From the NCBI GenBank assembly GCA_937924035.1, contig CALDTK010000108.1:1-56366 (forward strand): a DNA stretch of 56,366 bases. Reading direction: 5' to 3'. Under the pieces are notes generated by a model. It saw only the letters and a list, made by a program, of their open reading frames with translations, was not told where the DNA came from and ran no database searches. Each line of letters opens with the position of its first letter. Positions within the stretch are counted from its first letter, which is position 1. Positions 6,714 to 56,366 of this stretch are shown piece after piece. The position numbers and the translations under genes are program-made. Source of the stretch: an uncultured Saprospiraceae bacterium (lineage in GTDB: Bacteria > Bacteroidota > Bacteroidia > Chitinophagales > Saprospiraceae).

Positions 6714-9701
6714 ATGCAGCGTCACTTTCTCCTCTTACTTATTGTATCTATAGGTTTTTGCTCCTTTGCACTTGCGCAAGGGACAAATCCTGTTTCGGCA
6801 CCCTCAGACAAACGACCTAACAGTTATGCCATCAAGGCAGCTAAGGTGTATATCACCCCAGAGCGAATGCTTGAGAATGCTACGGTCATTGTCAAGGACG
6901 GACGCGTAGTAAACGTGGGTGTTGGGATCAACATTCCAGCAGGTGCAATTCAAGTGGATGCAGGAGAAAAGACTATCGTTCCTGGATTTATAGATCTGAT
7001 GAGCGACTATGGCCAGCCTGCGCTCGAAAAGACTAAGCGTGATTGGAGTAGGCCACAGTATGAGACCAAAACCGATGGTCCATTCAGTTGGAACCAAGCG
7101 TTAAAATCAGAGTACAATGCTGCTGCGCATTTTACAACAAATGAAAAGCGCGCAAAGGAGCTTCGTAAGCTTGGTTTTACAACGGTGCTGAGTCATAGAC
7201 CTGACGGAATCTCTCGAGGTTCGGCAGCAATGGTCTCTCTCGGTGACAAGTCGCCGCAAGAGTCAGTGATCAATGGAAAAGCAGCGCACGTGCTTAGTTT
7301 CTCTAAGGGAACGAGCACACAAATGTATCCGGGTTCTTTGATGGGCATGATTGCTTTGTTGCGACAGACCTATCTAGACGCGGAGTGGTATAATAGTTAC
7401 GGCAAAAAAGAAGTCACTAACCTCAGTATTGAGTCATGGTCTGATCTGCAAAACTTACCTCAGATATTTGCTGTAGGAGACAAGCTTGAAGCGATTCGGG
7501 CCTTGAATCTAGGTACTGAATTTAACGCCAAATACATCATAAAAGGAGACGGCGACACCTATCAACGACTGGACGGCTTTCGCCAAAACGAGAAATTTAT
7601 TGTCCCGCTCACCTTTCCTGATGCGTACGACGTCACCGATCCATATGATGCTCAAATGGCTGATTATGCCGACCTATTGCACTGGGAATTAGCCGATGCC
7701 AATGCGGTTTACTTGAAGAATGCTGGTCACCAAGTTGCCTTCACACTTGATGGTCTAGGCAAGGATGAAAAGTCGTTTTTTGAGCGCCTGGCTCGTGTGC
7801 GAGGCGCAGGGATGAGCGATTCAGATTTGCTTGCCGCATTGACTACTGTACCGGCAGCGTACGTAGGTATGGGTCAAGATTTAGGATCTCTCGAAAATGG
7901 AAAACTCGCCAACCTTATCATTCTAGATGAATGGCCAGTAGCCAAGAAAACGAAGGTTTACCAAACCTGGGTTTCAGGAGAGCCTTTTACACTCGCTCCA
8001 TTCAGTGAGGAAATCGCAGAAGGAGACTATCGCATTGTTGTCGGTGATATGGCTTACCTCATGCAAGTCGACGGCAAGGGTAAAGCCAAAGTGCGTGTAA
8101 AAGGGGATTCGGCTTTCGTCGATGCTAAATTGAAGCGCACTGTTGATCGTATCACCCTCTCTTTCCCCTCAGATACAGTGAAAGAAGCAGCTGTGATTCG
8201 CTTAGGAGGCCTGGTACAAGCACGTAAATGGGCAGGACAAGGCTATGACGCTGCTGGAAATTGGATGTCTTGGTCGGCGAAGTACGACGATACAATGTTG
8301 GTTGGAGACGAGGCGAAAAAGAAGGAGGATAAAGCTCCCGCCAAAACCCAAATAGACAAGCTTCCAGAGCTGCCAAAACCCTTCGCTCCATACGGATCTA
8401 CAGTTTTGCCGAAAGGCGAATCATTCGTAGTGCGCAACGCAACCGTTTGGACCAATGAAGATGTCGGTATACTCGAGAAGGCTGATGTCTACGTGGTTAA
8501 TGGAAAAATATCTGGTTTTGGCGAAAGCTTAAAAGTACCTAAAGGGGTAAAAGAAATCGATGGAACTGGCAAACACCTCACTACTGGAATTATAGATGAG
8601 CATTCACACATTGCAATCTCCCGCGGAGTAAATGAAGCTTCGCAAGAATCGACAGCTGAGGTAAGGATTGGTGATGTTGTCAACTCTGAAGACGTCAATA
8701 TTTATCGTCACCTCTCTGGTGGTGTTACTGCCATTCAACAACTGCATGGTTCTGCAAATCCAATCGGGGGCCAGTCATCGCTTATCAAGTTGCGCTGGGG
8801 TCACACGCCCGAAAAGCTCAAAATTGATGGAGCGGATGGGTTTATCAAGTTTGCCCTCGGTGAAAATGTGAAGCAGAGTAACTGGGGCGGGAATACCACG
8901 CGCTATCCGCAAACACGCATGGGGGTTGAGCAGGTTTATGAAGACTATTTCACGCGTGCGGAGGCCTATCACAAAGCTCGTATGGCTGGAGATAAATCGG
9001 TAAGGCGAGACCTAGACCTTGAAGCGCTCGCAGAGATTGTCAATAAAAAGCGTTTCATCTCTTGCCACTCGTACCGTCAGTCTGAGATCAATATGCTGAT
9101 GAAGGTTGCCGAACGCCACAACTTTAATGTCAACACCTTCACCCATATTTTGGAAGGCTACAAAGTGGCTGATAAAATGAAGGAACACGGTGTAGGTGCT
9201 TCGACCTTCAGTGATTGGTGGGCCTATAAATTCGAAGTCTGGGATGCGATTCCAGAAAACGGACCGATGATGCATGAGCAAGGGGTGACCGTAGCTTATA
9301 ATTCAGATGATGCAGAGCTAGGTCGACGCCTCAACCAAGAAGCAGGTAAGGCTGTACAGTACGGCGGCTTGAGCGAAGAGGACGCTTGGAAATTTGTGAC
9401 CCTCAATCCTGCGAAGTTGCTTCATCTTGACAATGAAATGGGGTCGATCAAAGCTGGCAAGGATGCCGACCTAGTGCTTTGGAACGCCCACCCAATGAGT
9501 GTGTATGCAAGTGCTGAAATGACTTGGGTAGATGGCACACTTTACTTCGATAGAGCAGATATGAAAAAGCGGCAGCAGGCCATGCGCACGGAGCGCAATC
9601 GCCTGGCACAAGCAATGCTAGACGAAAAGAATGCTGGAAAACGTACCAAGCCTGTAGAAGGGCATGGTGGTGAGCACTATGAATGTGACTCAGTCCACTA
9701 A
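6714..9701 (+). CDS. Two-domain amidohydrolase (imidazolonepropionase-like), secreted
   Basis: 995 aa, signal peptide; C-terminal amidohydrolase signatures GIIDEHSHIAISRG, ISCHSYR, AYNSDDAELGRRL, AGKDADLVLW; N-terminal half with related fold (FIDLMSDYG). Confidence 0.9.
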   Translation: MQRHFLLLLIVSIGFCSFALAQGTNPVSAPSDKRPNSYAIKAAKVYITPERMLENATVIVKDGRVVNVGVGINIPAGAIQVDAGEKTIVPGFIDLMSDYGQPALEKTKRDWSRPQYETKTDGPFSWNQALKSEYNAAAHFTTNEKRAKELRKLGFTTVLSHRPDGISRGSAAMVSLGDKSPQESVINGKAAHVLSFSKGTSTQMYPGSLMGMIALLRQTYLDAEWYNSYGKKEVTNLSIESWSDLQNLPQIFAVGDKLEAIRALNLGTEFNAKYIIKGDGDTYQRLDGFRQNEKFIVPLTFPDAYDVTDPYDAQMADYADLLHWELADANAVYLKNAGHQVAFTLDGLGKDEKSFFERLARVRGAGMSDSDLLAALTTVPAAYVGMGQDLGSLENGKLANLIILDEWPVAKKTKVYQTWVSGEPFTLAPFSEEIAEGDYRIVVGDMAYLMQVDGKGKAKVRVKGDSAFVDAKLKRTVDRITLSFPSDTVKEAAVIRLGGLVQARKWAGQGYDAAGNWMSWSAKYDDTMLVGDEAKKKEDKAPAKTQIDKLPELPKPFAPYGSTVLPKGESFVVRNATVWTNEDVGILEKADVYVVNGKISGFGESLKVPKGVKEIDGTGKHLTTGIIDEHSHIAISRGVNEASQESTAEVRIGDVVNSEDVNIYRHLSGGVTAIQQLHGSANPIGGQSSLIKLRWGHTPEKLKIDGADGFIKFALGENVKQSNWGGNTTRYPQTRMGVEQVYEDYFTRAEAYHKARMAGDKSVRRDLDLEALAEIVNKKRFISCHSYRQSEINMLMKVAERHNFNVNTFTHILEGYKVADKMKEHGVGASTFSDWWAYKFEVWDAIPENGPMMHEQGVTVAYNSDDAELGRRLNQEAGKAVQYGGLSEEDAWKFVTLNPAKLLHLDNEMGSIKAGKDADLVLWNAHPMSVYASAEMTWVDGTLYFDRADMKKRQQAMRTERNRLAQAMLDEKNAGKRTKPVEGHGGEHYECDSVH
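7576..7589 (+). repeat. Iterated 14-mer GCTTTCGCCAAAAC, exact
   Basis: Exact match; in the amidohydrolase encodes G-FRQN. Confidence 0.95.
8515..8528 (-). repeat. Iterated 14-mer GCTTTCGCCAAAAC, exact
   Basis: gttttggcgaaagc; encodes GFGES in the amidohydrolase. Confidence 0.95.
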
Positions 9702-9741
9702 TCAGTATTAGAGCCTCTTTTTCACCCTCAAGAATTCAACC

Positions 9742-11025
9742 ATGCGCACGTTTTTCTTTTTCGTTTTTTCCCTTCTTTTCACTCAACTTCAAGCTCAATT
9801 TATCCCTGGAGCTGAGCAGACGAAGCCCATTGCAATTACTGGAGCAACAGCTCACTTAGGCACAGGACTAGCCGTTGAAAATGCAGTTATCACCTTTGCC
9901 GAGGGTAAGCTTACTTACGTAGGTCCACAAGCTGGCGCACCTTCGCTGGCAGGGCATACGGTAATCGATGCAAAAGGGAAGGACATCTATCCTGGCTTTA
10001 TCGCAATGGACACCAGATTGGGCCTTGTAGAAATCGATGCGGTTCGAGCAACGGATGACATGCGTGAGGTGGGGTATCTCAATCCTAACGCGCGCTCACT
10101 TATTGCATTCAATACCGACTCAGAGATCATTCCGACGGTGCGAAATATTGGTGTCCTCACAGCACAGGTGACACCCGATGGTCGGGGGCTTGCTGGTCAG
10201 AGTAGTGCAATGTCAATGGACGGCTGGAACTGGGAAGATGCAGTCATCGGAATGGATGAGGGGATGCACTTGCACTGGCCTAGCGATTTTAGAATGACAG
10301 GCTGGTGGGCTGCACCAGGCGGCATGAAGAAGAATGAGAAGTACGATGAGCAAGTACAGTCAATCCAACAGTACTTTGAAGAGGCTCAGGCTTACGCCAA
10401 AACTGCAAGTCCAGTAGATAACCCTCGTTTTCAAAGTATGAAGGGAGTTTTTGCGGGCAGCCAAACGCTATATATCCACGCTAGTTTTGCCAGAGAAATA
10501 GAGGATGCAATTGCTTTTGCAGAACACTATAAGCTGAAACCAGTGTTGGTTGGAGGTCAGGATGCGTACCTACTCACAGACCTCTTAAAAGAGAAAGGCA
10601 TTTCTGTAGTGGTTGGTCCGGTACACGCTTTACCTGAGCGAGGAGATGACATGGTGAGTCAGCCATTTGAAACGCCAGGGCAATTACATGCAGCGGGCAT
10701 TCCTATTGCGTTTAGTGTTGGTGGAGCTTGGGAGCAACGTCGCCTACCACTCAATGCTGGGCACGCAGTTGGTTTTGGCTTGCCGTACGAAGAGGCCGTT
10801 AAAGGACTAACCCTCACTCCAGCGACAATGCTGAACATAGCGGATCGCGTAGGAAGTTTGGAAAAGGGCAAAGACGCTACACTCTTCATAAGTAAAGGTG
10901 ATGCACTCGATATGCGCACTAATATCCTAGAGCAAGCCTGGATAGGTGGGAGAGAAGTTGACTTACGTAGCCGACAGACCGAACTCGCTAAGAAGTACAA
11001 AGAGAAGTATACGCGTGGAGAGTAG
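9742..11025 (+). CDS. Amidohydrolase family protein, secreted
   Basis: 427 aa; signal peptide; KDIYPGFIAMDTRLG, LTPATMLNIADRVGSLEKGKDATLF motif. Confidence 0.88.
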   Translation: MRTFFFFVFSLLFTQLQAQFIPGAEQTKPIAITGATAHLGTGLAVENAVITFAEGKLTYVGPQAGAPSLAGHTVIDAKGKDIYPGFIAMDTRLGLVEIDAVRATDDMREVGYLNPNARSLIAFNTDSEIIPTVRNIGVLTAQVTPDGRGLAGQSSAMSMDGWNWEDAVIGMDEGMHLHWPSDFRMTGWWAAPGGMKKNEKYDEQVQSIQQYFEEAQAYAKTASPVDNPRFQSMKGVFAGSQTLYIHASFAREIEDAIAFAEHYKLKPVLVGGQDAYLLTDLLKEKGISVVVGPVHALPERGDDMVSQPFETPGQLHAAGIPIAFSVGGAWEQRRLPLNAGHAVGFGLPYEEAVKGLTLTPATMLNIADRVGSLEKGKDATLFISKGDALDMRTNILEQAWIGGREVDLRSRQTELAKKYKEKYTRGE

Positions 11026-11034
11026 GACTGTAAC

Positions 11035-11868
11035 CTACGCAACCAACATCTTCATCTCTTCCTCACTTAACTCAATTTTACCTGCGGCCAAGTTTTCTTC
11101 CAAGTGCTTCACACTGCTGGTACCTGGAATTGGAAGCAAGTTTTCTTTGTAGTGGAGCAACCAGGCAAGGGCAATTTGATAGACGGTTGCTCCGTGGGTT
11201 TTGGCGACAGCTTGAAGCGCCTCATTATCGACAGCACCGGCATTTAAGGGGTACCAAGGAATGAATCCAATACCCTGCTCTTTGCACCAATCTAGCTCAC
11301 CTTCCCACGCACGATCGGCGAGGTTGTACTTGTTTTGAATGCTAACAACCTCGAAGTGTTGTTGAGCTTGTTTCACTTGATCAATGGTGACTTCTGAAAG
11401 TCCAAGGTGGCGCACGTACCCTTGCTGCTGCAGCTCCGCGAGCTGACCTAAAAATTCATCAGCGGGTACTTTATCATCGAAACGATGCAATTGAAAAAGA
11501 TCAATTCGGTCAAGTTTCAGTCGCTTGAGACTTGACTTACATCGCTCTACTAGATGCTTAGGTCGACCGTTTGGACGCCACTTGTTTGGTCCATCGCGCA
11601 TGAGCCCGGCCTTCGTGGCGATGAGTACCCCATCATGATAAGGATGCAAAGCCTCCGCGATTAACTCTTCACTTACGAAAGGACCATAGGAATCTGCGGT
11701 GTCAATAAAATTGACCCCGAGTTCAACGCTGCGTTGTATTACCCTAATCGCCTCTCGTTTATCTTTTGGAGGTCCCCAGACGCCATCACCGGTGATACGC
11801 ATGGCACCATAGCCGAGTCGATTTATAGAAAAATCTCCGAGAGAAAAAGTAGGATTGTATGTTGGCAT
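11035..11868 (-). CDS. Aldo/keto reductase
   Basis: 277 aa; LGYGAMRITGDGVWG, FIDTADSYG, RIDLFQLHRFD, IPGTSSVKHLEENLAA. Confidence 0.95.
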   Translation of the reverse strand: MPTYNPTFSLGDFSINRLGYGAMRITGDGVWGPPKDKREAIRVIQRSVELGVNFIDTADSYGPFVSEELIAEALHPYHDGVLIATKAGLMRDGPNKWRPNGRPKHLVERCKSSLKRLKLDRIDLFQLHRFDDKVPADEFLGQLAELQQQGYVRHLGLSEVTIDQVKQAQQHFEVVSIQNKYNLADRAWEGELDWCKEQGIGFIPWYPLNAGAVDNEALQAVAKTHGATVYQIALAWLLHYKENLLPIPGTSSVKHLEENLAAGKIELSEEEMKMLVA

Positions 11869-13478: not shown

Positions 13479-14329
13479 ATAAACTTCATGCCTTAGGCAA
13501 AGCAATAAATTCATTAGCGCTGCTTTCGCCAAAACTAGCAGGCAACATAGCCGTACGTCTTTTTATTCGCCCAAGAAGAATTCCAGTCCGCCCAACTGCT
13601 CAAGCATATTTAAATAAAGCTGAGCGTCTTGATGCTGATGTGGGGCATCCTTTGGTGGGGTATTACTGGAAAGCAAAAGGAGAAACAAAGCAGCGCGTTT
13701 TACTCATTCACGGCTGGGAAAGTCATGCAGGGCGGTGGGTGCCACTGGTGCAACGCTTGCGTAAGATTGGAGTTGAAGTGGTTGCTTTCGATGGACCTGC
13801 TGCAGGTAAAAGTGGTGGCAAGGAAACGCCATTCAACTTTTACATCGATTGTATCCAAGAGGTGGAGCGACAATATGGTCCTTTTGATTCGGTGATCGGG
13901 CATAGCCTGGGTGGTGGGGTCGCAGTGCAGCTTTGTGCTCGCCTCAATGATTCCCGAAAGCCTGCTAAGGCAGTGGTTATGGCTGCTTTTGATGAGAGCA
14001 ACCATGTCTTTGACCGTTATCAAAAAATGTTAGGACTCAGCAATCGAGTGCGTGTCGCTTTCGATAGCCACATTATTGGTATGGTAAATCGCGACCTTGA
14101 CGAAGAGCTTTCCATTCAGGATTTTTCAAATGTAGCTTCCGTTAAAACACTACATCAAGTTGAAGCCTTGGTGGTACATAGTACAGATGATTTGGTTAGT
14201 CCATATGAAGAAGGCTTGGCGATATATGAAGCTTGGCCCCAAGCTAAGCTCGCCACATTTGAAAGTGAAGGGCATAGACTTCAAGGCAAGCAAGTCTTAA
14301 GTCACATTGTCGAATTTATAGGAAGCTGA
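13475..14329 (+). CDS. Alpha/beta hydrolase
   Basis: 284 aa; LLIHGWESHAGRW, GHSLGGG, VHSTDD, EGHRL; TTG start overlapping previous stop. Confidence 0.92.
   Translation: MNKLHALGKAINSLALLSPKLAGNIAVRLFIRPRRIPVRPTAQAYLNKAERLDADVGHPLVGYYWKAKGETKQRVLLIHGWESHAGRWVPLVQRLRKIGVEVVAFDGPAAGKSGGKETPFNFYIDCIQEVERQYGPFDSVIGHSLGGGVAVQLCARLNDSRKPAKAVVMAAFDESNHVFDRYQKMLGLSNRVRVAFDSHIIGMVNRDLDEELSIQDFSNVASVKTLHQVEALVVHSTDDLVSPYEEGLAIYEAWPQAKLATFESEGHRLQGKQVLSHIVEFIGS
13522..13535 (+). repeat. Iterated 14-mer GCTTTCGCCAAAAC, exact
   Basis: Exact match; encodes LLSPKL in the alpha/beta hydrolase. Confidence 0.95.
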
Positions 14330-17195: not shown

Positions 17196-18953
17196 TTACT
17201 CCCTCAATTTCAAGCCCAATTCAACAAGCTGCTCCTCACTTACCGTATCAGGTGCATCTATCATAACATCGCGACCTTGGTTATTCTTCGGGAAGGCGAT
17301 GTAGTCACGAATACTTGTCTTGCCCTGCATTACAGCACATAGACGATCAAAGCCAAATGCGATGCCACCGTGTGGAGGAGCACCATACTCGAAGGCACCC
17401 ATTAAGAATCCAAACTGTGCCTCTGCCTCTTCTTTCGAGAAGCCGAGCAGGTCAAAGTTGCGTGATTGAAGCGCGCGGTCGTGAATACGAATACTACCAC
17501 CTCCAATCTCAGAACCGTTGATGACTAAGTCATACGCATCGGCCTTAAGGTTTTTGAGCACTTCATGATCAGTTGAATCCATTAAGTGACGCTCACTTGG
17601 TTTCGGACTGGTGAAAGGGTGGTGCATCGCATGGAATCGACCACCGTCTTCGTCCCATTCTAAGAGCGGAAAATCAATGACCCAGAGTGGCTTGAAGTCA
17701 CCTGGTTTTACGAGGTCAAGTTGGTTTGCCATTTCAAGACGAAGCTCTCCGAGTTGCTTGCGCACTTTGTCAACTTCTCCTGAAAGAATAAGAATCAGGT
17801 CGCCTGGTTTAGCAGCTGCTGTTTTGGCGAAAGCTGTGAGCGCATCTTGATCATAAAACTTGTCTACGCTACTCTTGAAGCTTCCATCGTCATTACACTT
17901 CACATACACCATGCCTTTGGCGCCGATCTGAGGACGTTTTACCCAATCGGTAAGCTTGTCTAGTTGCTTGCGTGTGTAAGAGGCTGCGCCAGGAATGCAG
18001 ATACCTGCAACGAGTGGAGCCTCATCAAAAATCTTGAAATCCTTACCTTTTGCTTCAGCATTTAGATCAATGATCTCTAGACCAAATCGCATGTCTGGCT
18101 TGTCTGAACCGAAGCGACGCATCGCCTCGTCGTACTGCATACGAGGGAACTCACGGAGCTCAACATTGAGCACTTCATTGAAAAGATGACGGGTGAGTCC
18201 TTCGAAGGTATTTAGGATGTCCTCCTGCTCGACGAAGGCCATTTCACAATCAATCTGGGTAAATTCAGGTTGACGATCTGCACGTAAATCCTCATCACGG
18301 AAGCACTTCACAATTTGGAAGTACTTGTCGTAGCCACTCACCATGAGCAGCTGCTTGAAGGTCTGTGGACTTTGCGGCAGCGCGTAAAAGTTGCCTGGAT
18401 TCATGCGGCTAGGAACCACAAAATCACGTGCACCTTCTGGTGTTGATTTGATAAGGACTGGCGTTTCAACTTCAAGGAATCCCTGACCACTCAAGTGTCC
18501 ACGTACGGCTTGCGCCATTTTGCTTCTGAAGATGATTGCATTTTGCAGTGGCCCTCGACGTAAGTCGAGATACCGGTACTGCATACGGATGTCCTCACCA
18601 CCATCGCTTTCATCTTCGATAGTAAATGGAGGAGTTTTAGCTGCATTTAGTATGGTTATCGCTTTCGCAAAAACCTCAACTTCGCCCGTTGCCCGATCAG
18701 CGTTTTTTGACTCCCGTTCACGAACAGCACCACTTGCCTGAATTACAAATTCACGACCGAGCGAATCAGCGATCTTTTGCATAGCTGCCCCTGAATCTGG
18801 ATCAACCACAACCTGAGTAATGCCGTAACGATCGCGCACATCTAAAAAGATGAGGCTTCCGAATTGACGTTTACTTTGGACCCAACCCGCTAGGGTCACA
18901 TCATTTCCAGCGTCGGTGATACGTAATTGGCCACAAGTGTGCGTACGGTACAT
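17196..18953 (-). CDS. aspS: Aspartate--tRNA ligase
   Basis: 585 aa; [57 protein letters not shown]. Confidence 0.98.
17821..17834 (-). repeat. Iterated 14-mer GCTTTCGCCAAAAC, exact
   Basis: In aspS, encodes AFAKT. Confidence 0.95.
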
Positions 18954-18964: not shown

Positions 18965-18978
18965 GTTTTGGCGAAAGC
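18965..18978 (-). repeat. Iterated 14-mer GCTTTCGCCAAAAC, exact
   Basis: Intergenic, 11 nt upstream of the aspS start codon. Confidence 0.95.
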
Positions 18979-20936: not shown

Positions 20937-22142
20937 ATGCAAGATGTTCTGATTTTTGACTGTGTTCGCACTCCAAGAGGGAGAGCACGATTAGGTGGTG
21001 GACTGTATGAGGTAGCCCCACATCGTCTAGTAGCTAAGTTGCTCCACGCGATTTCTGATAGACTATCGCTCGATCCATCAGACGTGGCTGATTTACTGTT
21101 GGGCTGTGTAACTCCTGTAGGTGATCAAGGATATAACATCGCTCAGGCGAGTCTTCTTGCTGCGAATTGGCCAGATGGAGTTGCTGGTGCTCAGGTGAAT
21201 CGATACTGTGCCAGTGGCTTAGAAAGTATTCATAGTGCCGCTGCTCGAATTGCTGCAGGCTGGGATGATCTAATCATAGCCGGAGGAGTAGAATCGATGA
21301 GTCGCGTCCCTCTAGGGAGTGATGGTGGTCCGCTGCTCGATAATCCTTCACTTGTTCTGGAAACGGCAGCTATTCCACAAGGAATCAGCGCAGACCTGAT
21401 CGCTTCTTTGCAAGAGATGAGCCGCAAAGAGTTAGATGAATATGCATTGCAGTCTCAAAAACGTGCGGAAGCTGCTCGCAAAAAGAAGCTTTTTAAGAAA
21501 TCGCTGATCGCTATTAAAGATGAAAATGGGATCGTGCTATTAGATCAAGATGAGCACCCTAGGCCTACTTCAACGCTCGAAGCATTGGGGGGGCTTTCTC
21601 CAGCTTTCGCCAAAACAGGAAAACTCGGGTTTGATGCACTTGCACTTCGTAAATACCCAATCTTAGCCGCAATAGACCATAGGCATACTGCAGGTAATAG
21701 TTCTGGGCTTGTAGATGGTGCAAGCCTCGTAGTACTTGGTAATGACGCAATTGCTAAGCAAACAGGCATGAAGCCACGCGCGCGAATCAAGGCAGTCGCG
21801 GTGGCGAGTTCGGAGGCTACTATCATGTTGACTGGGATGATTCCAGCAACAGAAAAGGTTTTGGCGAAAGCTGGGCTGAGTATCTCAGACATTGACCTTA
21901 TCGAAGTTAACGAAGCTTTCGCGGCTATCCCTTTAGCGTTCATGAAGCACTTCGGGCTTAAAGACAACAATGTAAATGTGAATGGTGGCGCCATTGCCCT
22001 TGGACATCCTGTCGGAGCAACAGGTTCTATGTTGGTTGGGACTATCGTAGATGAACTGGAGCAACGTAAAAAGAAGCTTGGGTTAGTCACATTGTGTGCG
22101 GGAGGTGGACAAGGGATTGCCGCTGTAATCGAATTGATTTAG
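20937..22142 (+). CDS. Acetyl-CoA C-acyltransferase (thiolase)
   Basis: 401 aa; DCVRTPRGRARLGG, VNRYCASGLESIHSAA, NVNGGAIALGHPVGATGSM, LVTLCAGGGQGIAAVIE. Confidence 0.97.
   Translation: MQDVLIFDCVRTPRGRARLGGGLYEVAPHRLVAKLLHAISDRLSLDPSDVADLLLGCVTPVGDQGYNIAQASLLAANWPDGVAGAQVNRYCASGLESIHSAAARIAAGWDDLIIAGGVESMSRVPLGSDGGPLLDNPSLVLETAAIPQGISADLIASLQEMSRKELDEYALQSQKRAEAARKKKLFKKSLIAIKDENGIVLLDQDEHPRPTSTLEALGGLSPAFAKTGKLGFDALALRKYPILAAIDHRHTAGNSSGLVDGASLVVLGNDAIAKQTGMKPRARIKAVAVASSEATIMLTGMIPATEKVLAKAGLSISDIDLIEVNEAFAAIPLAFMKHFGLKDNNVNVNGGAIALGHPVGATGSMLVGTIVDELEQRKKKLGLVTLCAGGGQGIAAVIELI
21603..21616 (+). repeat. Iterated 14-mer GCTTTCGCCAAAAC, exact
   Basis: In thiolase, encodes AFAKT. Confidence 0.95.
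21858..21871 (-). repeat. Iterated 14-mer GCTTTCGCCAAAAC, exact
   Basis: In thiolase, encodes VLAKA. Confidence 0.95.
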
Positions 22143-23919: not shown

Positions 23920-24693
23920 TTGGTTATCTTTTGGCTGGTGAAAGAAGCAGTACAAAAAGCATCATTAATTAATAGAATTACAGCAGGCTTCTCGGAATTT
24001 ATATTCCCAGAAGCCTGTGCTGTTTGTGGTAGGTCTATTCCAGCGGGAACTCGATTTGTTTGCGTTCGCTGCAGGGCTACGATGACAACTCTAGACCTCC
24101 ATCATTTACCAGAGAATACGATTACCGATCGGTTTTGGGGACGACTTCCAGTAGACCGAGCAGCAGCGTTACTACCGTATAGTCAGGGTACTCCCGCTCA
24201 AAGGTTAATGTGGTTGTTGAAGTATGATAATCGACCCGAAGTGGGCGTGAAATTAGGGGCTTGGTTAGGTCAATTGATTAAACACTCGTTTGTTTTTGGA
24301 GAAGTAGACTATGTTATACCAGTGCCACTACATGAGAAAAAACTTCGAACACGCGGTTACAATCAAGCAGAACGTGTAGCGGCAGGAATTGCAGAAGAAA
24401 TTGATGCGGAATGCCTTCCATTTGCTGTTGTGCGAAAGCAGTTTACAGAGACCCAAACGCGAAAATCACAGTTTGAAAGGATGGAAAATGTAGAGGCCGT
24501 TTTTGAGCTGGCTCGTAGTCCAAACAGTCAGGGTCAAACAAATCAAAAATCTCATTTCCTTACGGGAAAACACATTTTACTCGTCGATGATGTCATGACC
24601 ACTGGAGCGACACTGGAGGCCTTGGGCAGGGCTATTCTTCCTGCAAGACCGGCGAGTTTTAAAGTAGCGGTTCTTGCCTTGGCTCGCTTTTGA
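23920..24693 (+). CDS. ComF family phosphoribosyltransferase-like protein
   Basis: N-terminal Cys pairs (CAVCGRSIPAGTRFVCVRC), LLKYDNRPEVG, IPVPLHEKKLRTRGYNQAE, and PRTase loop ILLVDDVMTTGATL; likely TTG or alternative start. Confidence 0.92.
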   Translation: MVIFWLVKEAVQKASLINRITAGFSEFIFPEACAVCGRSIPAGTRFVCVRCRATMTTLDLHHLPENTITDRFWGRLPVDRAAALLPYSQGTPAQRLMWLLKYDNRPEVGVKLGAWLGQLIKHSFVFGEVDYVIPVPLHEKKLRTRGYNQAERVAAGIAEEIDAECLPFAVVRKQFTETQTRKSQFERMENVEAVFELARSPNSQGQTNQKSHFLTGKHILLVDDVMTTGATLEALGRAILPARPASFKVAVLALARF

Positions 24694-27848: not shown

Positions 27849-28463
27849 TTAACCCATTTCTTGCTTAACTTCTGTGACCTCAGGTATCATACGCTTTAGC
27901 ATAGATTCTATACCACTTTTTAAAGTTACTGTTGAAGAAGGACAGCCGCTACAACTGCCTTGCATGATTACGGTTACCACGCCTTCCTTGAAACTCTTTA
28001 AGGCAATATTACCTCCATCCATTTCAACTGCTGGTCGGACGTATGTATCGATTAGTTCCTCGATTTTCGTGACGATGGCTTCATCATCGCCAGAGTACTC
28101 GTAATTGGCGCGTCGCTCAGCCTCCATTGCTTCTGATGCTTCCGCAAAACCTTCCTTGACAATTTCATGGCCTTCTTCGATCCACTTCTTGATGAAGGAC
28201 TTGGCTTGTAACATGATATCGTCCCAAGCGTAATTGAACTCTTTCGTAATCGTTACGAAGTTGTTGCAGATATAAACACCCTTGACGTAAGGTTGCTTAA
28301 ACAGTTCAGAAGCAAGCTTACTCCATTCATCAGCCAATTCAACTTCTCTAAAATCGGCTGTGCCTGTATAAAGCATGCGATTCGTTACAAACTTCAGAGA
28401 TTCCGGATTTGGAGTTTGCTCTGTGTAAAGCATTACAGGACTTTTCGTTGTAGTAGCGGACAT
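27849..28463 (-). CDS. NifU-family Fe-S scaffold protein (Nfu-like, with N-terminal Nfu_N domain)
   Basis: YTEQTPNPESLKFVTN; VRPAVEMDGGNIALKSFKEGVVTVIMQGSCSGCPSSTVTLKSGIE (CxxC). Confidence 0.96.
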   Translation of the reverse strand: MSATTTKSPVMLYTEQTPNPESLKFVTNRMLYTGTADFREVELADEWSKLASELFKQPYVKGVYICNNFVTITKEFNYAWDDIMLQAKSFIKKWIEEGHEIVKEGFAEASEAMEAERRANYEYSGDDEAIVTKIEELIDTYVRPAVEMDGGNIALKSFKEGVVTVIMQGSCSGCPSSTVTLKSGIESMLKRMIPEVTEVKQEMG

Positions 28464-30656: not shown

Positions 30657-30670
30657 GCTTTCGCCAAAAC
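30657..30670 (+). repeat. Iterated 14-mer GCTTTCGCCAAAAC, exact
   Basis: Intergenic between rnc and the anti-sigma gene. Confidence 0.95.
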
Positions 30671-31343: not shown

Positions 31344-31915
31344 GGTGTTGAAATTGGAGCATGTTCTTGGACAAACGCAGTGACTTTTTGAACAGCATGA
31401 TGGTAGTTTGCTTTTAAAGTACCTTCGCTTTTTCCGAAGGTTTCCGCGAGAATAGCATAGGGGGTTTCTGCAAAATATCTTGCCTTGAACACGCTGCGTT
31501 GCTGAGGAGGTAGCATCTCAATGGCTTTTGCAAGAATCTCTTCGATCTCCGAGCCGTTATACCCATTAGATTCAGATACTCGGTCTTGAATTCCAAGTTG
31601 CTCGTCGTTGGTTTTGCCGAAAGGTGCAGAAGCATTGCGTTTTCGCTTTCTTAGAAAATCGAGTGCTTCATTAGAAGCGATCCGATAGAGCCAACTGTAC
31701 AAAGAACTATCCGCTTTAAAAGACTTGATTCCTCTAAGAACTTTGATCAACGCATTTTGATAAACATCCTCTGCATCTGCCTCGACAGTCACGATAGATC
31801 TTATGCGCTGAAAGAGTCTTGGTCCGAACTGTTCCGTAAGCGCACGCATAGCTGCATCTCTCTCGCTAGAAAGTGATAAGCCATGTACGATTTCAGATTC
31901 AGTCATCGATGTCAC
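31340..31915 (-). CDS. ECF-type RNA polymerase sigma-70 factor
   Basis: 191 aa; DAEDVYQNALIKVLRGIKSFKADSSLYSWLYRIASNEALDFLRKRKR; LPPQQRSVFKARYFAETPYAILAETFGKSEGTLKANYHHA. Confidence 0.95.
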   Translation of the reverse strand: MTSMTESEIVHGLSLSSERDAAMRALTEQFGPRLFQRIRSIVTVEADAEDVYQNALIKVLRGIKSFKADSSLYSWLYRIASNEALDFLRKRKRNASAPFGKTNDEQLGIQDRVSESNGYNGSEIEEILAKAIEMLPPQQRSVFKARYFAETPYAILAETFGKSEGTLKANYHHAVQKVTAFVQEHAPISTP

Positions 31916-34750: not shown

Positions 34751-36274
34751 TTAGTCGAAGTGACGGTTCAGCAGCTCCCCGCTCTTTACCAAGCCTTCCG
34801 CCCTCTCCATGTCGTAGGCAAAGATCCTATCCTCGGTGGCGTGAGTAATGTGCTTCCGCAAAACAGCATGTGCATGCTCGACGGCTGCTCCAGATTTTAG
34901 CGGACGTTGAAAGTCTAAGGCTTGACCTGCACAGAGTAACTCAATCGCAAGTACGCGCTCAAGATTACCAATGACGCGAAGCAACTTGCGACTTCCAATG
35001 CTGCCCATGCTCACATGATCTTCTTGCCCCATTCCAGTTGGAATAGAATCGGCCGAAGCAGGGAAACACTGCGTCTTGTTTTCAGAAACAAGCGCTGCAG
35101 CGGTGTATTGCAAAATCATATAGCCACTGTCAAGGCCGGCATCTTTCATCAGAAGGGTAGGCACATTTGGATGTGTTCCGAGCAAGCTCAAGTAGATGCG
35201 TCGTTCACTTATGCTACCCAACTCGGCCGCAGCAAGTGTCGCATAATCAATCGGTAAAGCCATTGGCTGACCGTGAAAACTACCGCCGCTGATCACCTCT
35301 TCATGTCCAACAAGTACGGGGTTGTCCGTCACGCTATTCAACTCAACAGTGAGCACATCGCTAAGGTGTTTCCAGGCATCGTAGCTCGCACCATGGACCT
35401 GCGGCATACAACGAATCGAATACGGATCCTGTACGCGATCGCAATCTGCATGAGCTGCAGGAATTTCACTACCCTGCATGTTTTGGCGTAAGCTAGATGC
35501 AACGTGAACAGCACCACTATGAGGTCGTAAAGCGTGTAGTCGCTCATCGAAAGGACTTGTAGCCGCCTGAATGCCGTCGACCATCATCGCCCCAATCAGG
35601 TTGGCGTGTTCTAGACAATTGCGCAAACGCTCTACCGCCAGCGTGGCGTGGGCGGCAATAAATTGCGTTCCATTAATCAAGGCCAATCCATCCTTAGGAC
35701 CAAGCTCTATAGCAGCCAACCCGTGCTCTGCATAAACTTCACTTGTCGGGCGTGCTTGAATACTTTCGTCAAAACCTTCATTTAGATAACCTTCACCTAT
35801 GAGTGGTAGGAATAAATGTGAAAGTGGGGCCAAATCGCCCGATGCACCCACGCTTCCTTGACTTGGAACGACAGGTGAAAATTGGTGGTTGATGAGCCAG
35901 AGAATCCGCTCTACCACAGCTGGGCTAATTCCGCTTTTGCCAAAACAAAGCGCATGAAGCTTTTGCACCAGCATGAGTCTAGAAACGATAATCGGAATCG
36001 GATTGCCCATCCCAACGCTATGACTTCGCAACAGCTTTTCTTGAAGAATTGCGCGTTGCTCCTTTGGGATAATCGTAGCGCACAACGGACCGAAGCCTGT
36101 GTTTATGCCGTAAGTCGCCGAATCAGATTGAGCAATTGCGACAATTTGATCGTGCGCGCTCACGATACCATGATGGACTTCAGCAGTAATCTGACCCTTG
36201 CTTTTAGCCTGAGCGAGTTGTAGCGCTAGTTCAGGAGTGAGTGTGTCGCTACCAAAAGAAAAAGACGGATTCAT
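34751..36274 (-). CDS. hutH: Histidine ammonia-lyase
   Basis: 507 aa; MIO motif GASGDLAPLSHL, YGINTGFGPLC, SVTDNPVL. Confidence 0.95.
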   Translation of the reverse strand: MNPSFSFGSDTLTPELALQLAQAKSKGQITAEVHHGIVSAHDQIVAIAQSDSATYGINTGFGPLCATIIPKEQRAILQEKLLRSHSVGMGNPIPIIVSRLMLVQKLHALCFGKSGISPAVVERILWLINHQFSPVVPSQGSVGASGDLAPLSHLFLPLIGEGYLNEGFDESIQARPTSEVYAEHGLAAIELGPKDGLALINGTQFIAAHATLAVERLRNCLEHANLIGAMMVDGIQAATSPFDERLHALRPHSGAVHVASSLRQNMQGSEIPAAHADCDRVQDPYSIRCMPQVHGASYDAWKHLSDVLTVELNSVTDNPVLVGHEEVISGGSFHGQPMALPIDYATLAAAELGSISERRIYLSLLGTHPNVPTLLMKDAGLDSGYMILQYTAAALVSENKTQCFPASADSIPTGMGQEDHVSMGSIGSRKLLRVIGNLERVLAIELLCAGQALDFQRPLKSGAAVEHAHAVLRKHITHATEDRIFAYDMERAEGLVKSGELLNRHFD

Positions 36275-40210: not shown

Positions 40211-41689
40211 CTAAAGGACTTCTTGCCATCGCCCGAAAAAGTCAGCATACGCATCTGCTAATTCAGCCTTTGGACGGAAGCCACCAATTTGCTCTAAGCT
40301 TGCCAAGGCCTCTTTGTGATCAGCAAATGCTCCACTTCCAACACCAGCTGCGCGTGCGGCACCTTGAGCACCGTCGGTAGCGAAGAGTTCAAGAGGAGCC
40401 CCTGTGAGTTGACTAAACGCTTGACAAAAGCGATCGCTTAAAAAGAGGTTGGCACGACCGGCTCGCACTACAGTTGGTTGAGCCCCAAGCTCACCCATTG
40501 CGTTGCCCCCGTAAGCTAAGGCAGCCGCAATACCATCTTGAATCGCAGCGGTCATTTCAGGAGCGCCATGTCGGTTAAAATTAAGGTGCCTTATCGTCGC
40601 CCCTGGTTCTGAATTCCCAAGTAAGCGTTCGGCACCATTGCCCCATGGATAAAACAGCAGGCCATCACTACCGATTGCACTTTCACTCGCCCAGGTATTG
40701 AGTTGGTTGTAGCCTGGCATCACACCTCCTGCTCCGAGGGTTCGTCGAAGCCAGGCGTAACCGCTGCCCGTGCCGTTGATGCAAAGTAGGATTCCGAGGC
40801 GTGCGGCTGCTTCAGAATCATTGACATGTAAGAAGGTATTCACCCGCTGTTGCTGATCGTATTTTTGTTTATCAGTTACCGCATAGACAACTCCTGAAGT
40901 TCCTGCGGTAGCAGCGGTTTCTCCTGGGTTGAGCGCCTTAAGTGAGTAAGCATTATTTGGCTGATCGCCTGCTCGATAGGTGACTTGGGTGTTTTGGCGA
41001 AAGCCGAATTGCTCGCATACTTCATGCTTCACTTCTCCTTGAGGTCCGAAGGTGGGCACTAGTGGTGGAAGTAGCGAAACGTCCAAGCCGTAATGGTCTA
41101 AGACAGCATAGGCAGGTTCTCGCGAGGCAAAATTCCAGAGTACCATCTCGCTTAATCCACTAGCCGTGGTGTTGCGTTCTCCGGTTAGTCTGAATGCGAT
41201 GTAGTCACCAGGTAGCATGGCGGTTACAGCTTTCGCCAAAACCTTCGGCTCGTTTGCAGCCACCCACGCCCACTTGCTTGCTGTAAAGTTTCCTGGGCTA
41301 TTCAGGGTGGTCGATTCAATGGTCTCAACTCCTATGGCAGCTTCTGCTGCTCTTCCAAGATCAACAGCACGACTGTCGCACCAGATAATACTCGGTCTTA
41401 CGGATTTGCCTTCATCATCTAGCAATACAAGTCCGTGCATTTGGTATCCAATTCCGATGGAATTGACTTCGGTGAGTGGATGGTTTTTAGAAAGTAAAGC
41501 GAGCGCTTTCTCTGTATGCTTCCACCACAGCTCAGGTTTCTGTTCAGCCCATCCGGCTTGTGGTGCATTGATTTTAAGCTCTTGTTTGGTTGGGGATTGA
41601 GCTGCTGCTAAGACCCTACCTCCGTTACTATCAACAAGCGAGACTTTTACAGAAGAACTTCCTAAATCAATTCCAAGGAGATGTGCCAT
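40211..41689 (-). CDS. xylB: Xylulokinase (FGGY family)
   Basis: LLGIDLGSSSVKVSLVD, QMHGLVLLDDEG, adjacent to xylA on the same strand. Confidence 0.94.
   Translation of the reverse strand: MAHLLGIDLGSSSVKVSLVDSNGGRVLAAAQSPTKQELKINAPQAGWAEQKPELWWKHTEKALALLSKNHPLTEVNSIGIGYQMHGLVLLDDEGKSVRPSIIWCDSRAVDLGRAAEAAIGVETIESTTLNSPGNFTASKWAWVAANEPKVLAKAVTAMLPGDYIAFRLTGERNTTASGLSEMVLWNFASREPAYAVLDHYGLDVSLLPPLVPTFGPQGEVKHEVCEQFGFRQNTQVTYRAGDQPNNAYSLKALNPGETAATAGTSGVVYAVTDKQKYDQQQRVNTFLHVNDSEAAARLGILLCINGTGSGYAWLRRTLGAGGVMPGYNQLNTWASESAIGSDGLLFYPWGNGAERLLGNSEPGATIRHLNFNRHGAPEMTAAIQDGIAAALAYGGNAMGELGAQPTVVRAGRANLFLSDRFCQAFSQLTGAPLELFATDGAQGAARAAGVGSGAFADHKEALASLEQIGGFRPKAELADAYADFFGRWQEVL
40991..41004 (-). 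repeat. Iterated 14-mer GCTTTCGCCAAAAC, exact
   Basis: In xylB, encodes FRQN. Confidence 0.95.
41229..41242 (+). repeat. Iterated 14-mer GCTTTCGCCAAAAC, exact
   Basis: In xylB, encodes VLAKA. Confidence 0.95.
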
Positions 41690-47104: not shown

Positions 47105-50100
47105 TTACATGTTCCTGCGATACTCACCTCCAACTTCATACAGCGCACCTGTCAATTGACCGAGCGAGCAATACTTGGCAGCCTCAAGCAACACATCAAA
47201 TGTGTTTTCTCCTGCTAGCGCAACTTCTTGGAGTTGCTTCAAGGCATCTGGAGCTCTATCAGCAAAAGCAGTATGTAAGCCTTCTAGACGCGTAATCTGT
47301 GAAAGCTTTTCATCTTGATCAGCTCGAATTACTTCACTTGGCGTAATCGTCGGCGAACCGTCTTTACCCTTGTAGGTGTTCACTCCGATCACAGGCATTT
47401 CACCTGTATGCTTGAGCATTTCGTAGTGCATAGACTCTTCTTGAATTTTGCCACGCTGATACATGGATTCCATAGCTCCGAGCACACCACCACGTTCGGT
47501 GAGGCGATCGAACTCCATGAGAACCGCATCTTCAACGAGATCAGTAAGCTCTTCTATGATGAAAGAGCCTTGAAGTGGATTCTCATTCTTAGCGAGACCA
47601 AGCTCGTGATTGATAATCAATTGGATGGCTACAGCGCGACGCACGCTTTCTTCTGTTGGAGTTGTAATTGCCTCGTCGTATGCATTCGTGTGTAACGAAT
47701 TACAATTATCATAGATCGCATACAATGCCTGAAGCGTCGTACGAATATCGTTGAAGCTGATCTCCTGAGCATGCAAGCTGCGACCGGAAGTCTGGATATG
47801 ATACTTCAGCTTTTGGCTGCGGTCATTGGCTCCATACTTTTCTCGCATGGCTTTCGCCCACACCCGACGCGCTACACGGCCGATAACAGCATACTCAGGA
47901 TCAATTCCATTGGAGAAGAAGAAGCTAAGGTTTGGTGCAAACTTGTTGATGTCCATCTCGCGACTCAAGTAGTACTCCACGTAGGTAAAGCCATTCGCGA
48001 GCGTGAATGCAAGTTGCGTAATCGGATTTGCTCCGGCCTCGGCAATGTGGTATCCTGAAATACTGACCGAGTAAAAATTGCGAATGCCTTCACGAATAAA
48101 AGCCTCCTGCATATCTCCCATAAGACGAAGCGAAAACTCCGTTGAGAAGATGCAAGTATTCTGCGCTTGATCCTCTTTGAGAATATCTGCTTGGACAGTT
48201 CCACGTACGCTAGTAAGCGCTTTAAGTCTACAAGCTGCATAAGCATCGGCAGGTAACACTTGGTCGCCCGTCAATCCAAGGAGCATGAGTCCCAAGCCAT
48301 CGTTCCCTTCAGGAATTTCTCCCCTATATGTTGGACGCTCGAGCCCTTTTGCATCGTAGGTTTTGGCGTAAGCTTCTTCTACAAGATGCTCAAGTTTGTG
48401 TTCCTTGATATACATCTCACACTGCTGGTCGATGGCCGCATTCATGTAAAAGGCTGTTATTGCAGCTGCCGGACCGTTGATAGTCATGCTTACTGAGGTA
48501 GTTGGCTTACTCAGATCGAAACCTGAGTATAGTCGCTTAGCATCATCGAGTGAGCAAATGCTAACCCCTGAGTTGCCCACCTTTCCAAAGATATCTGGTC
48601 GGTGGTCAGGATCTTCTCCGTAAAGGGTCACCGAGTCAAAAGCCGTTGAAAGGCGTGCTGCCGGCATACCTTGGCTCAAATAGTGAAAACGTTTGTTGGT
48701 TCGTTCGGGTCCACCTTCACCAGCAAACATCCGTGTTGGATCTTCCCCTTTTCTTTTGAACGGGAAAACTCCAGCGGTGAAAGGAAATTCACCCGGTACA
48801 TTTTCTTGACGTAGCCAGCGCAAGCGATCTCCCCAATCGTTATATTTCGGAAGAGATACGCGTGGAATCTTACTTCCGGAAAGACTCTTTGTCGATGTAG
48901 GGACTTTTATTGCTTTGTCTCTTACATGATAGACGTACTCATCGGCCGTGTAACGCGAAACGAGGTCATCCCAACCATCAAGTTCTCTTGCAGAGTCTGC
49001 GTGTAACTGACGACGTAAGGTAGCAGCGAGTTCTTTTACTTCATTGCTTTCTACAAGGGCCGCTGTACCTTCAACATGCTGCACTTTTCTAGCCAGTTCA
49101 GCTTCCGCCAAAACACGTGCATCGTAAGCACGATTTGCCTCTGCGATTTCCGAAAGGTAACGTTGTCGCGCCCCTGGAATGATTGCAGATGGAGCACCTG
49201 CAACTGCTGAAGCTGCCTCCGTAGATTGTTTTTCGAGACTGCTGGAAGCACTTGAAGAAAGCTGTAGATGATCGTATCCACGCTCGGCAAGTTTTGCTTC
49301 TACTGCTGTCCAGAGGGTGTTTACTCCCGCATCATTAAAGACTGAAGCCATCGTACCATACACTGGCATGTCATCGAGTGGGTCATGCCAGCGATCGTTG
49401 TTACGTTGGTATTGCTTACGCACGTCTCGGAGTGCGTCTAAAGATCCTCGTTTATCAAATTTATTGAGGGCAATGAGGTCAGCGAAATCGAGCATGTCGA
49501 TTTTCTCAAGCTGGGTTGCAGCCCCGTACTCTGGAGTCATTACGTAGAGCGTAACATCAGAATGGTCTACAATTTCTGTATCACTTTGACCGATTCCAGA
49601 GGTCTCTAATATGATAAGGTCAAAACCTTCTACTTTAAGCAGGTCAACTGCAGTTTGGACGTACTTACTCAAAGCCAAGTTGCTCTGACGTGTTGCAAGC
49701 GATCGCATGTATACACGTGGCGAGCGCAAGGCATTCATGCGGATTCGATCACCAAGAAGGGCCCCACCTGTTTTGCGTTTACTTGGATCGACAGAGATGA
49801 CGCCGATTCGCTCATTTGTTGTTGCAAGCAAAAAGCGTCGGATCAATTCATCAACGAGTGATGATTTTCCAGAACCTCCCGTTCCAGTTATTCCCAAGAC
49901 TGGGGTTTTGGCGGAAGCTGCTTTTTTAGAAACATCATCGATTAGATCCGTGTAACGATCTGCGTTATTCTCGACTAAGGTTATCTTTCTAGCAAGTTGG
50001 ACAACCTTATCGTCGATGTTCTTTTCCAGTGCGCCGAGTTCGAAGTCGCACCGCATCAGTACATCATTGATCATCCCTTGAAGGCCCATTTCCCGACCAT

Positions 50101-52704: not shown

Positions 52705-53421
52705 ATGCTATTTCGATTTTGTTTGATTTTATGTTGCTCAATATTACTCGCGTCGTGTGGGTCTCCAAATCCAGCAATTGATAAATTGAAAGAAGTACAC
52801 CTAGCCATTCAGGCCGCTGAAACTATTGATGAGTTGTATCCATATTTTACAGATAGTTCTGTAGAGTATTTTAAATACATGACTCAAATTGAAGAGCAAT
52901 CAATAGAACAAAAACTACTCAAAGGATACAGTTTTGATCTCATGTTTACCACGGCTTTGTTTGCCCAGCAAGGAGATAATTCGCAGGATTCTACATTAGC
53001 CAAGTTTAATGAGACCTTCCTATTGCACAGCTTTAAAATGTCAAATAACCCCGTCTTTTCTTGGAGCGAGATCCCTCAAATTAATGATGACTTAAGTTCG
53101 TGTTGCAACCCTAGCTATGTCACGGTCTTGAAGAAACTGGACCACAAGACCTACATCACAAAGAAGATTTATTTCGAAGGCCCAGCCGATGACCTAAAGC
53201 TTGATGTCCTCAGCGCATTAAGAGCGGAAGAATCACTATTCAAGCAGTCTTTTGCGCAGTTCAGAGAACCTGGATTACTCGAAACGAATACGCAAAAGAG
53301 TATGCGTCGACTTGCCAGCATTGCTGCAAGAGCTCATCCTAACGACCCGAAGTGCACAGACTATGTAAAAGCAATGCTTTCTGGAGAGTTTGAAGGTGGC
53401 GGCGTTATATACCGCATGTAA
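52705..53421 (+). CDS. Hypothetical lipoprotein
   Basis: 238 aa; MLFRFCLILCCSILLASCGSPN lipobox. Confidence 0.8.
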   Translation: MLFRFCLILCCSILLASCGSPNPAIDKLKEVHLAIQAAETIDELYPYFTDSSVEYFKYMTQIEEQSIEQKLLKGYSFDLMFTTALFAQQGDNSQDSTLAKFNETFLLHSFKMSNNPVFSWSEIPQINDDLSSCCNPSYVTVLKKLDHKTYITKKIYFEGPADDLKLDVLSALRAEESLFKQSFAQFREPGLLETNTQKSMRRLASIAARAHPNDPKCTDYVKAMLSGEFEGGGVIYRM

Positions 53422-53563
53422 GAAGTCCCTAGGTCAACTAAGGAAATTAACCGTCAAATGTCCCACAGCAGTGGAATGGCCTTTCAACCGCAGCTCGGTA
53501 CATCTAGCTCGCGTCACGACATTACCAATTGACAATTACTAATTGATAATTGCCAACGACAGC

Positions 53564-55471: not shown

Positions 55472-55638
55472 GCTAGCTGCGTATGCTGGAAGAGTAGGAA
55501 GAAAGGCTGACTGCTCACGGTCAACTCTAAAGCAAAGATATGGTTATTCTTCTGCCTTAGCTTGTCATTTCTCATCTTACTCACAGATGTGAATAGATGA
55601 ACGACTTTTCTCTATTCTGGGTTCGTTTCTCGTCCCTA

Positions 55639-56366
55639 CTAGTATTTAGAAAGCACATCTGAGACCCAATTTTGGAGCAAGTTTTCACCAGCAGTATTGT
55701 GAGATTTGTCTTGTTCGTCGAGTTCTTGAAGTTGAACAATAGCTTTCGCTAAAACTAAGTTGGACTGTTTTGCACAAACCCCTTTCCCCTTGGCCGTCAG
55801 TGCTTTACCAAGCCATTCTTGTTCGGGTTGTCCAGGGGTAGGGATGAAGATTGCATTCCGCTTTAGAACAGCAAGGTCCATGACAGTAGTGTAACCCGGC
55901 CTTGTCACGATGATCTCAGCTTTCGCCAAAACATCCATCAACGCCTCAGTTCCTAGGTAGTCGTAAACCTCAACTACCCTCCCTAGGTTAGCTAGTGATT
56001 CCATCAAGTCTTTGTCTAGGTTTGGAGCCTTGTGAGGTCTTCCTCTAATGAGGGATACTTTTTCGCTGTAAGGGAATTGTTTTAGCTCAAGAAGGATTTG
56101 CTCTTCTAGTTTAGTGCGCTGTGGTTCGGGCCCAGAAAGGACGATGGCCATGCCTTTATTAGGTTCTTCGCGCTCGTTCTGTGAGAATCGACTAACGGCA
56201 CCTATATAGGCTGTTGGAGTTTTCGAATGTGGGGCGCTCATGTCTCCTGCTAGTCGAGGAGATGATGCGACATCAGGTACGATTACGTGATCGAATTTTG
56301 CAAGTAGCCTGTGGTTGAGAAAATTTCCAAGCTTTCGCGAAAACCAATTTTGAATTGGCAAGTGCA
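55639..56366 (-). CDS. Glycosyltransferase, MurG/GT28-like (partial, N-terminus beyond window)
   Basis: IVTRPGYTTVMDLAVLKRNAIFIPTPGQPEQEWLGKAL; frame stays open to the right edge. Confidence 0.88.
   Translation of the reverse strand, partial: HLPIQNWFSRKLGNFLNHRLLAKFDHVIVPDVASSPRLAGDMSAPHSKTPTAYIGAVSRFSQNEREEPNKGMAIVLSGPEPQRTKLEEQILLELKQFPYSEKVSLIRGRPHKAPNLDKDLMESLANLGRVVEVYDYLGTEALMDVLAKAEIIVTRPGYTTVMDLAVLKRNAIFIPTPGQPEQEWLGKALTAKGKGVCAKQSNLVLAKAIVQLQELDEQDKSHNTAGENLLQNWVSDVLSKY
55919..55932 (+). repeat. Iterated 14-mer GCTTTCGCCAAAAC, exact
   Basis: In the glycosyltransferase, encodes VLAKA. Confidence 0.95.

Follow-up and report, generated by a model that had tools for sequence, protein, structure and literature searches.

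A short hairpin word defined by base pairing and iterated through Saprospiraceae genomes: a possible single-strand mark of self DNA

The 56,366-nucleotide stretch of DNA analysed here (the window; contig CALDTK010000108.1 of an uncultured Saprospiraceae bacterium) carries many copies of a 14-nucleotide word that is the commonest form of a genome-wide hairpin element. The element is real and conserved, it is defined by base pairing, and its spacing is strand-specific. It differs among genera in the manner of dialects, is indifferent to the genes in which it lies, and its copies on the same strand repel one another over ~3 kb. We consider it fairly probable that the element is a mark of self DNA read by its structure—a single-stranded DNA mini-hairpin, present once per few kb on each strand, that would license imported or resected strands for uptake or recombination in hosts that lack type IV pili. 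The more specific proposal is that of a strand-specific signal of self DNA, recognized as a hairpin in single-stranded form and most likely serving transformation; we tentatively favour it, as a possibility rather than an expectation. Such an element points to a putative hairpin-reading protein and to a single-strand step in self-DNA recognition by environmental bacteria, and it offers a concrete, testable handle on how pilus-free Bacteroidota take up DNA.

The window is contig C108 of a 4.1-Mb draft genome that is 86% complete (G000). It contains 11 exact and 12 one-mismatch copies of the 14-mer, i.e., 23 matches where dinucleotide shuffles with at most one mismatch give an expectation of 0.03. 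An earlier note on this DNA had listed these copies, and all eleven exact ones were recovered at the coordinate and strand it gave; its twelve one-mismatch copies are likewise all present, with one coordinate to be corrected from 3320 to 3319. The whole-genome count that it had proposed gives 547 exact copies in G000 (285 on the + strand and 262 on the - strand) as opposed to 0 for the reversed word, a result far from chance. Together with the conservation described below, this count supports the earlier reading of a real word maintained throughout the genome. The other genome of the genus (G001) holds 508 exact copies; counts are 0-11 in the remaining genera covered by the first survey of the family, and 0-3 elsewhere in the order.

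The earlier note described a fixed 14-nucleotide sequence with an imperfect dyad at its core, and both parts of this description had to be replaced. Single mismatches cluster at positions 5 and 9 (59 of 67 in a 403-kb sample of G000), which yields the generalized word GCTTNCGCNAAAAC, present 1217 times in G000 (617 +, 600 -) and 1128 times in G001 with control counts of 0 and 5. Double mismatches cluster jointly at positions 1 and 8 and restore Watson-Crick pairing: the stem GC..GC was counted 148 times, CC..GG 31 times and AC..GT 14 times, one-sided changes are nearly absent, and the paired changes enlarge the set of sites by a further ~30%. A second apparent class of double mismatches, at positions 2/13, was discarded as a near-palindrome artefact arising from variants with G at position 9. 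The element of G000 can be written x-C-TTNC-G-x'-N-AAAAC, where x is complementary to x' (the pairs seen are G-C, C-G and A-T) and the spacer N is sometimes missing; the opposite strand reads 5'-GTTTTN-x'-C-GNAA-G-x, a mini-hairpin with a GNAA loop. What had appeared to be a dyad is an intramolecular hairpin in which positions 1/8 and partly 0/9 covary, positions 2/7 are C-G and the loop is TTNC/GNAA, with more than ten constrained positions defined through pairing. Site density is 0.49 per kb, from which we extrapolate that G000 would hold about 2,000 sites.

The strength of the pairing rule is apparent from shuffling the right-hand letters of the sites. Positions 1/8 pair at 290 of 295 sites in G000 (shuffled mean 179, maximum 198), and comparable departures are found in G001 (244/246 vs 147), G027 (179/208 vs 64) and G180 (79/80 vs 37). 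A third pair is formed by positions 0/9, which covary in all of the genomes tested. Within genus g27 all four Watson-Crick pairs are used at 1/8 (93, 90, 29 and 25 sites), and any other pair occurs at most 9 times. A scan of hairpins with 3- to 5-nucleotide loops that was blind to the motif ranked C(TTTC)G, equivalent to C(GAAA)G, top or tied top in 6 of 6 genomes, and other TTNC loops came near the top in several of them.

For counts across the family we used SCTTTCGSNAAA as a loose probe and compared it with its own reversed control. It is strongly above control in a minority of Saprospiraceae genera: 1088 vs 18 in g1, 874 and 934 vs 22-24 in g27, 577 and 1801 vs 14-19 in g29, 1344 vs 39 in g117, 386 vs 13 in g123, and 925 and 1564 copies in g38. 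Weaker excesses are seen in g69, g4, g140, g66, g133, g71 and g18. In the other families of the order the probe is at control level, and a phylum-wide survey covering 394 genomes found nothing outside the Saprospiraceae near the levels of word-bearing genomes, the largest excess being at most 2- to 5-fold in genus g174. Tails and stems vary among g1, g27, g29, g38 and g117, constituting dialects; the tail is NAAAAC in g1, A-rich in g27 and CAAATG/T in g29 and g117. Presence and absence of the word can also differ within a genus (G018 vs G172 in g18, G004 vs G162 in g4, and G027, G179 and G250 vs G297 in g27), and these contrasts are useful for locating the reader gene by comparison. We considered a Dokdonia metagenome-assembled genome (MAG; locus L079) as a further case and set it aside, as its word differs and is fully palindromic; a palindrome near TACGCTTTCGCGAAAGCGTA occurs there four times in 13 kb (1442, 7439, 10956 and 12003). 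These palindromes are perhaps terminators, and a palindromic word of this type possibly lies behind the mild excess in g174.

The positions of the sites show that the word acts at the DNA level and is indifferent to genes. In agreement with the earlier note, copies occur both in unrelated genes (aspartyl-tRNA synthetase and thiolase in the window) and in non-coding DNA; overall ~84% of sites are genic and 16% intergenic, with intergenic DNA making up ~10% of the total. Within called open reading frames, sense and antisense sites are equally common (78/83 and 57/59) and every frame is represented, and a protein motif was rejected on the grounds that sites occur in all frames and both orientations. 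The flanks are otherwise unconserved apart from a mild T-rich stretch (T at -2/-3) and a preferred C at -1, and are thus not fully random; the earlier note had described similarity as dropping beyond the 14 nucleotides apart from a mild preference for a preceding A. Conservation of position in relatives, another check the earlier note had proposed, is high: the motif was kept in 26 of 32 orthologous comparisons of G000 sites with the sister genome, whose orthologous DNA is 73% identical. Columns within the motif show 97-100% identity apart from the free positions 5 and 9 (83% and 90%), the flanks lie at ~75%, and 29 of the 32 comparisons align without gaps. In g27, G179 retains 12 of 13 sites in the comparison with G027, and G297, which seems to be without the word, only 1 of 10. 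No switching of stems at orthologous sites was seen in either the G000-sister or the g27 comparisons.

These features bear directly on explanations through mobility or transcription. A mobile repeat was rejected given the unconserved flanks and the mostly ungapped orthologous alignments, and neither it nor a conserved protein domain, the two explanations that the earlier note had named as fatal to its reading, accounts for the copies. Carriage by phages was also rejected, as among the viral contigs listed there were only single chance-like copies. A very small repeat of the repetitive extragenic palindromic (REP) type, the target of an HUH (Y1/RAYT) transposase, would suit the form of the word, since the ends of IS200/IS605 and REP elements also take the form of a hairpin with a fixed 5' arm that is recognized on one strand. 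Stem loops of this kind have been described for IS605 (PMC2775950). Such a transposase target is largely refuted and hardly credible here, as Y1_Tnp (PF01797) is absent from the six word-bearing genomes G180, G029, G186, G135, G218 and G275, flanks are unrepeated, orthologues are mostly ungapped and most sites are genic. Equally hard to credit, and strongly disfavoured, is an RNA element in which an RNA-binding protein would recognize GNRA-loop hairpins in transcripts: in RNA, too, C(GNAA)G is a classic tetraloop, but sense and antisense copies are equal within genes and the window has no Rfam match.

The arrangement of sites along the chromosome is the second line of evidence. The earlier note had observed that orientation is balanced, which is true overall, and had missed that neighbours tend to alternate between + and -. 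Adjacent sites share orientation in 90 cases and oppose in 185 in G000 (P 1e-8), and in 76 and 149 cases in G001 (P 1e-6). At distances of 200-3000 bp there are 110 same-orientation pairs in G000, where 2000 label shuffles average 142 and never fall below 120, and 115 in G001 compared to 140. The same-strand depletion reaches ~3 kb; opposite-orientation pairs are not depleted and, when convergent, are enriched below 400 bp. Gaps on each strand are more even than random (coefficient of variation 0.70-0.78). The tendency is less pronounced in g27 and g117, and g29 and g38, with less sequence available, give no clear sign of it. Site orientation followed neither GC skew nor gene strand in G000, a draft genome, and to that extent replication polarity is an unlikely explanation. 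The strand and spacing test that the earlier note had proposed thus revealed strand-specific spacing and no polarity with respect to GC skew. Since same-strand copies repel one another and opposite-strand copies do not, the word appears redundant along one strand and independent of its copies on the other: its user seems to view only a single strand across a few kb, such that each strand would need its own copy.

This spacing is also what would be expected of a Chi-like site, at which an end-acting recombination nuclease/helicase would respond to the word in one strand by changing over to repair, each direction needing a site every few kb. The same-strand redundancy and opposite-strand independence over ~3 kb, the density of ~0.5 per kb, the genus-level differences and the opposite orientations that would be read from the two ends of a break all suit this alternative. 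The covariation, with all four pairs in use, is hard to fit to a Chi site, which is a short fixed word read linearly within the enzyme; moreover, the sites are unbiased with respect to gene strand and GC skew, and many complete relatives are without the word. We regard a Chi-like role as unlikely, if a serious contender. Less likely again is a chromosomal site for a protein—a nucleoid, replication or repair factor—that binds hairpins or cruciforms extruded from the cell's own double-stranded DNA. The even, conserved, genome-wide spread on both strands would agree with such a role, and a C(GNAA)G loop with a T-rich arm could extrude under supercoiling, yet extrusion exposes both strands, leaving no reason for repulsion restricted to the same orientation, and a 2-3 bp stem is very short. 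Among the roles that the earlier note had suggested, DNA-uptake signal and recombination site are still the two best, and binding site of a nucleoid protein or of a global regulator is now less likely.

We return to a self-DNA signal read on a single strand, and to the question of which strand is folded. It is established that the C(GNAA)G hairpin is, for its size, exceptionally stable as DNA. Mini-hairpins of the GCGAAGC type serve as stability modules (PMC4686876). Summed over G027, G179, G180, G186 and G129 (all outside g1), 0/9 pairs that wobble (G-T) on the GNAA strand number 59 vs 65 in shuffles, and those that wobble only on the other strand are depleted, at 6 vs 19. The predicted DNA folding energy is -1.8 kcal/mol for the GNAA strand and -0.5 kcal/mol for its complement. 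The wobble pattern and the better DNA folding point, with modest weight, to the GNAA strand as the one that folds. The recognition element would be a single-stranded DNA mini-hairpin with a GNAA loop, a closing C-G pair, a free Watson-Crick pair, a weakly paired position and a T-rich arm on its 5' side. Copies would originate in situ via point mutation and then be retained, and a self-DNA process that views one strand over a few kb would favour word-bearing DNA. If that process is natural transformation, a single strand would enter via ComEC, and hairpin-bearing strands would be preferred by a protein at the inner membrane or beyond it. We infer the single-stranded state of the folded form, the reading of the GNAA strand and the link to transformation.

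Gene content in these hosts makes uptake possible, which is short of proof. ComEC was found in 31 of 32 genomes and DprA in 29 of 32, across the family, and DUF5689 is strong in every strong-word genome except G330 (79% complete). Bacteroidota can be transformed without known pilus machinery: Riemerella uses ComEC, DprA, ComF and new proteins unlike known uptake machinery, one essential member of which carries DUF5689 (PMC8459023). The type IV pilus ATPase (PF00437) had no clear match in the strong-word genomes searched. The sole clear match was in G063, a genome with at most a weak word excess; that in G000 is a truncated PilB at a contig end (G000:C356:12129, L190), which, judged by eye, resembles a gammaproteobacterial protein, and the contig is probably a contaminant of the bin. 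These absences count against a classical uptake sequence of the kind found in Neisseriaceae and Pasteurellaceae, which a type IV pilin would read in double-stranded form and in which the pairing would be a coincidence of dialects. The hairpin word resembles pilin-read words in its copy number, its spread within genes, its dialects among genera and its closely spaced inverted pairs (PMC3630211, PMC7811141). Even so, the ATPase is missing from nearly all word genomes; judged by PF00437, G029 appears to combine completeness and a strong word with the lack of a pilus, and G135 may be a second such case; the strict pairing within each genome is no coincidence; and strand-specific spacing is undescribed for such sequences. 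We consider a pilin-read word very improbable.

Several points also weigh against the single-strand transformation signal that we favour. The uptake words known so far function in duplex DNA at the outer membrane, a setting in which folding into a hairpin should be irrelevant. A Chi-like role predicts the identical strand-specific spacing. ComEC, DprA and DUF5689 are not discriminating genes, as they occur in many word-less relatives and so fail to explain the distribution of the word, and DprA was not found in G000, at the 86% completeness of that genome. The hosts are uncultured and their competence is putative. One observation in favour of the signal is L161 (G000:C78, 1-19315), a 19.3-kb contig with zero sites where about nine are expected, and the sole long site-free contig in the sample. 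It encodes glycosyltransferases, an O-antigen-type (Wzt-type) ABC transporter and related genes of a polysaccharide island, its GC content is 42% vs 45%, and neither the sister genome nor six further genomes contain a DNA match to it. Recently acquired DNA that is free of the word is as expected for a self-marker, but L161 could be assembly contamination of the bin.

Within the window, sites were compared to the sister locus L009, from an uncultured Saprospiraceae MAG whose aspartyl-tRNA synthetase is 96% identical to that of the window (~70% for Neolewinella), a result that assigns the window to the Saprospiraceae. Exact copies kept in L009 lie at 8515..8528 (-), 13522..13535 (+), 17821..17834 (-, within the aspartyl-tRNA synthetase gene) and, within the thiolase gene, at 21603..21616 (+) and 21858..21871 (-), whereas that at 7576..7589 (+) is not kept. 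The remaining exact copies are intergenic at 18965..18978 (-, upstream of the synthetase) and 30657..30670 (+), or are found at 40991..41004 (-), 41229..41242 (+) and 55919..55932 (+). One-mismatch forms include GCTTCCGCCAAAAC at 3319..3332 (+), 49101..49114 (+) and 49905..49918 (-), GCTTGCGCCAAAAC at 4096..4109 (-), GCTTACGCCAAAAC at 10390..10403 (+, kept in L009), 35480..35493 (-) and 48360..48373 (-), GCTTTCGCAAAAAC at 18661..18674 (+, kept in L009), GCTTTCGCTAAAAC at 55742..55755 (+) and GCTTTCGCGAAAAC at 56331..56344 (+). The variant GCTGTCGCCAAAAC at 11198..11211 (-) has the loop TGTC, which is found repeatedly in G000 and G001. Compensated stems are present in CCTTTCGGCAAAAC at 8403..8416 (-, C-G) and 31611..31624 (-) and in CCTTACGGGAAAAC at 24558..24571 (+), and ACTTTCGTCAAAAC at 35762..35775 (+) has an A-T stem. 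The form without the spacer, GCTTCCGCAAAAC, occurs at 28138..28150 (+) and 34852..34864 (+), and a further hairpin word, GCTTCCGCTAAAAC, at 29157..29170 (-).

Other repeats and biases were met along the way. Locus L221 (G027:C1) has two interspersed ~60-70 bp repeats (5447-5509 and 9148-9219), with dozens of copies across g27 genomes, that are apparently unconnected with the hairpin word. In L147/L148 (G063:C1), ~39 tightly repeated units containing TAGAATAAGGATTG, plus GGATTGAAAC words, form a block that looks like a CRISPR (clustered regularly interspaced short palindromic repeats) array. In the pooled loci L024-L088, mostly Flavobacteriia, CAGAAG-core hairpins have a paired outer base more often than expected (179 vs 122, z 5.9), a further pairing bias. 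Neolewinella persica (L010) has strong local repeats, TCGCTTCGCTC and GCAGAGTTCGC, within 22 kb, and GTTTTGAGT (ACTCAAAAC) is over-represented in the 17-21 kb loci L015 and L019, where it could be an unrelated genome word.

We found no described word of this type in the open-access literature searched; the nearest systems share some of its features each. The DNA uptake sequences (DUS) of Neisseriaceae number hundreds to thousands of copies on both strands, genic and intergenic, with genus dialects, no mobile element and conservation, but are fixed sequences recognized by the pilin ComP (PMC3630211, PMC3868556). Unlike DUS, the hairpin word is defined by pairing and has a freely variable stem, its same-strand copies repel one another, and its hosts, as far as tested, are without type IV pili. 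The uptake signal sequences (USS) of Pasteurellaceae have a similar density (~1 per kb), close inverted pairs and a watermark-like spread, but a single copy forms no hairpin and uptake is of duplex DNA through the pilus secretin (PMC7811141, PMC2346458); USS also favour one orientation in reading frames (PMC2346458), a preference that the hairpin word does not show. Measured against DUS and USS, genome-wide copy number, genus dialects and core competence genes are present, whereas a fixed sequence read as a duplex (positions 1/8 vary provided they pair) and type IV pilus machinery that includes a DNA-binding minor pilin are not. REP/RAYT elements are longer and extragenic, and a Y1 transposase spreads them through insertion; the hairpin word shares none of these traits. 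Chi sites (RecBCD/AddAB) are likewise strand-specific, genome-wide and recognized on a single strand, but they are fixed linear words of 5-8 nucleotides, often polar along the replichore, with no known pairing requirement; the same-orientation repulsion seen here matches strand-specific action as evidence from spacing rather than from activity, and a pairing-defined element is no fixed linear word. Because the defining tests of each failed, we do not class the element as DUS/USS, Chi or REP. Known highly iterated words—DUS, USS, Chi, KOPS (FtsK-orienting polar sequences) and HIP1 (highly iterated palindrome 1)—are defined by sequence, whereas here it is base pairing that defines the word; should it turn out to serve as a signal for uptake, that class would gain a new form based on structure.

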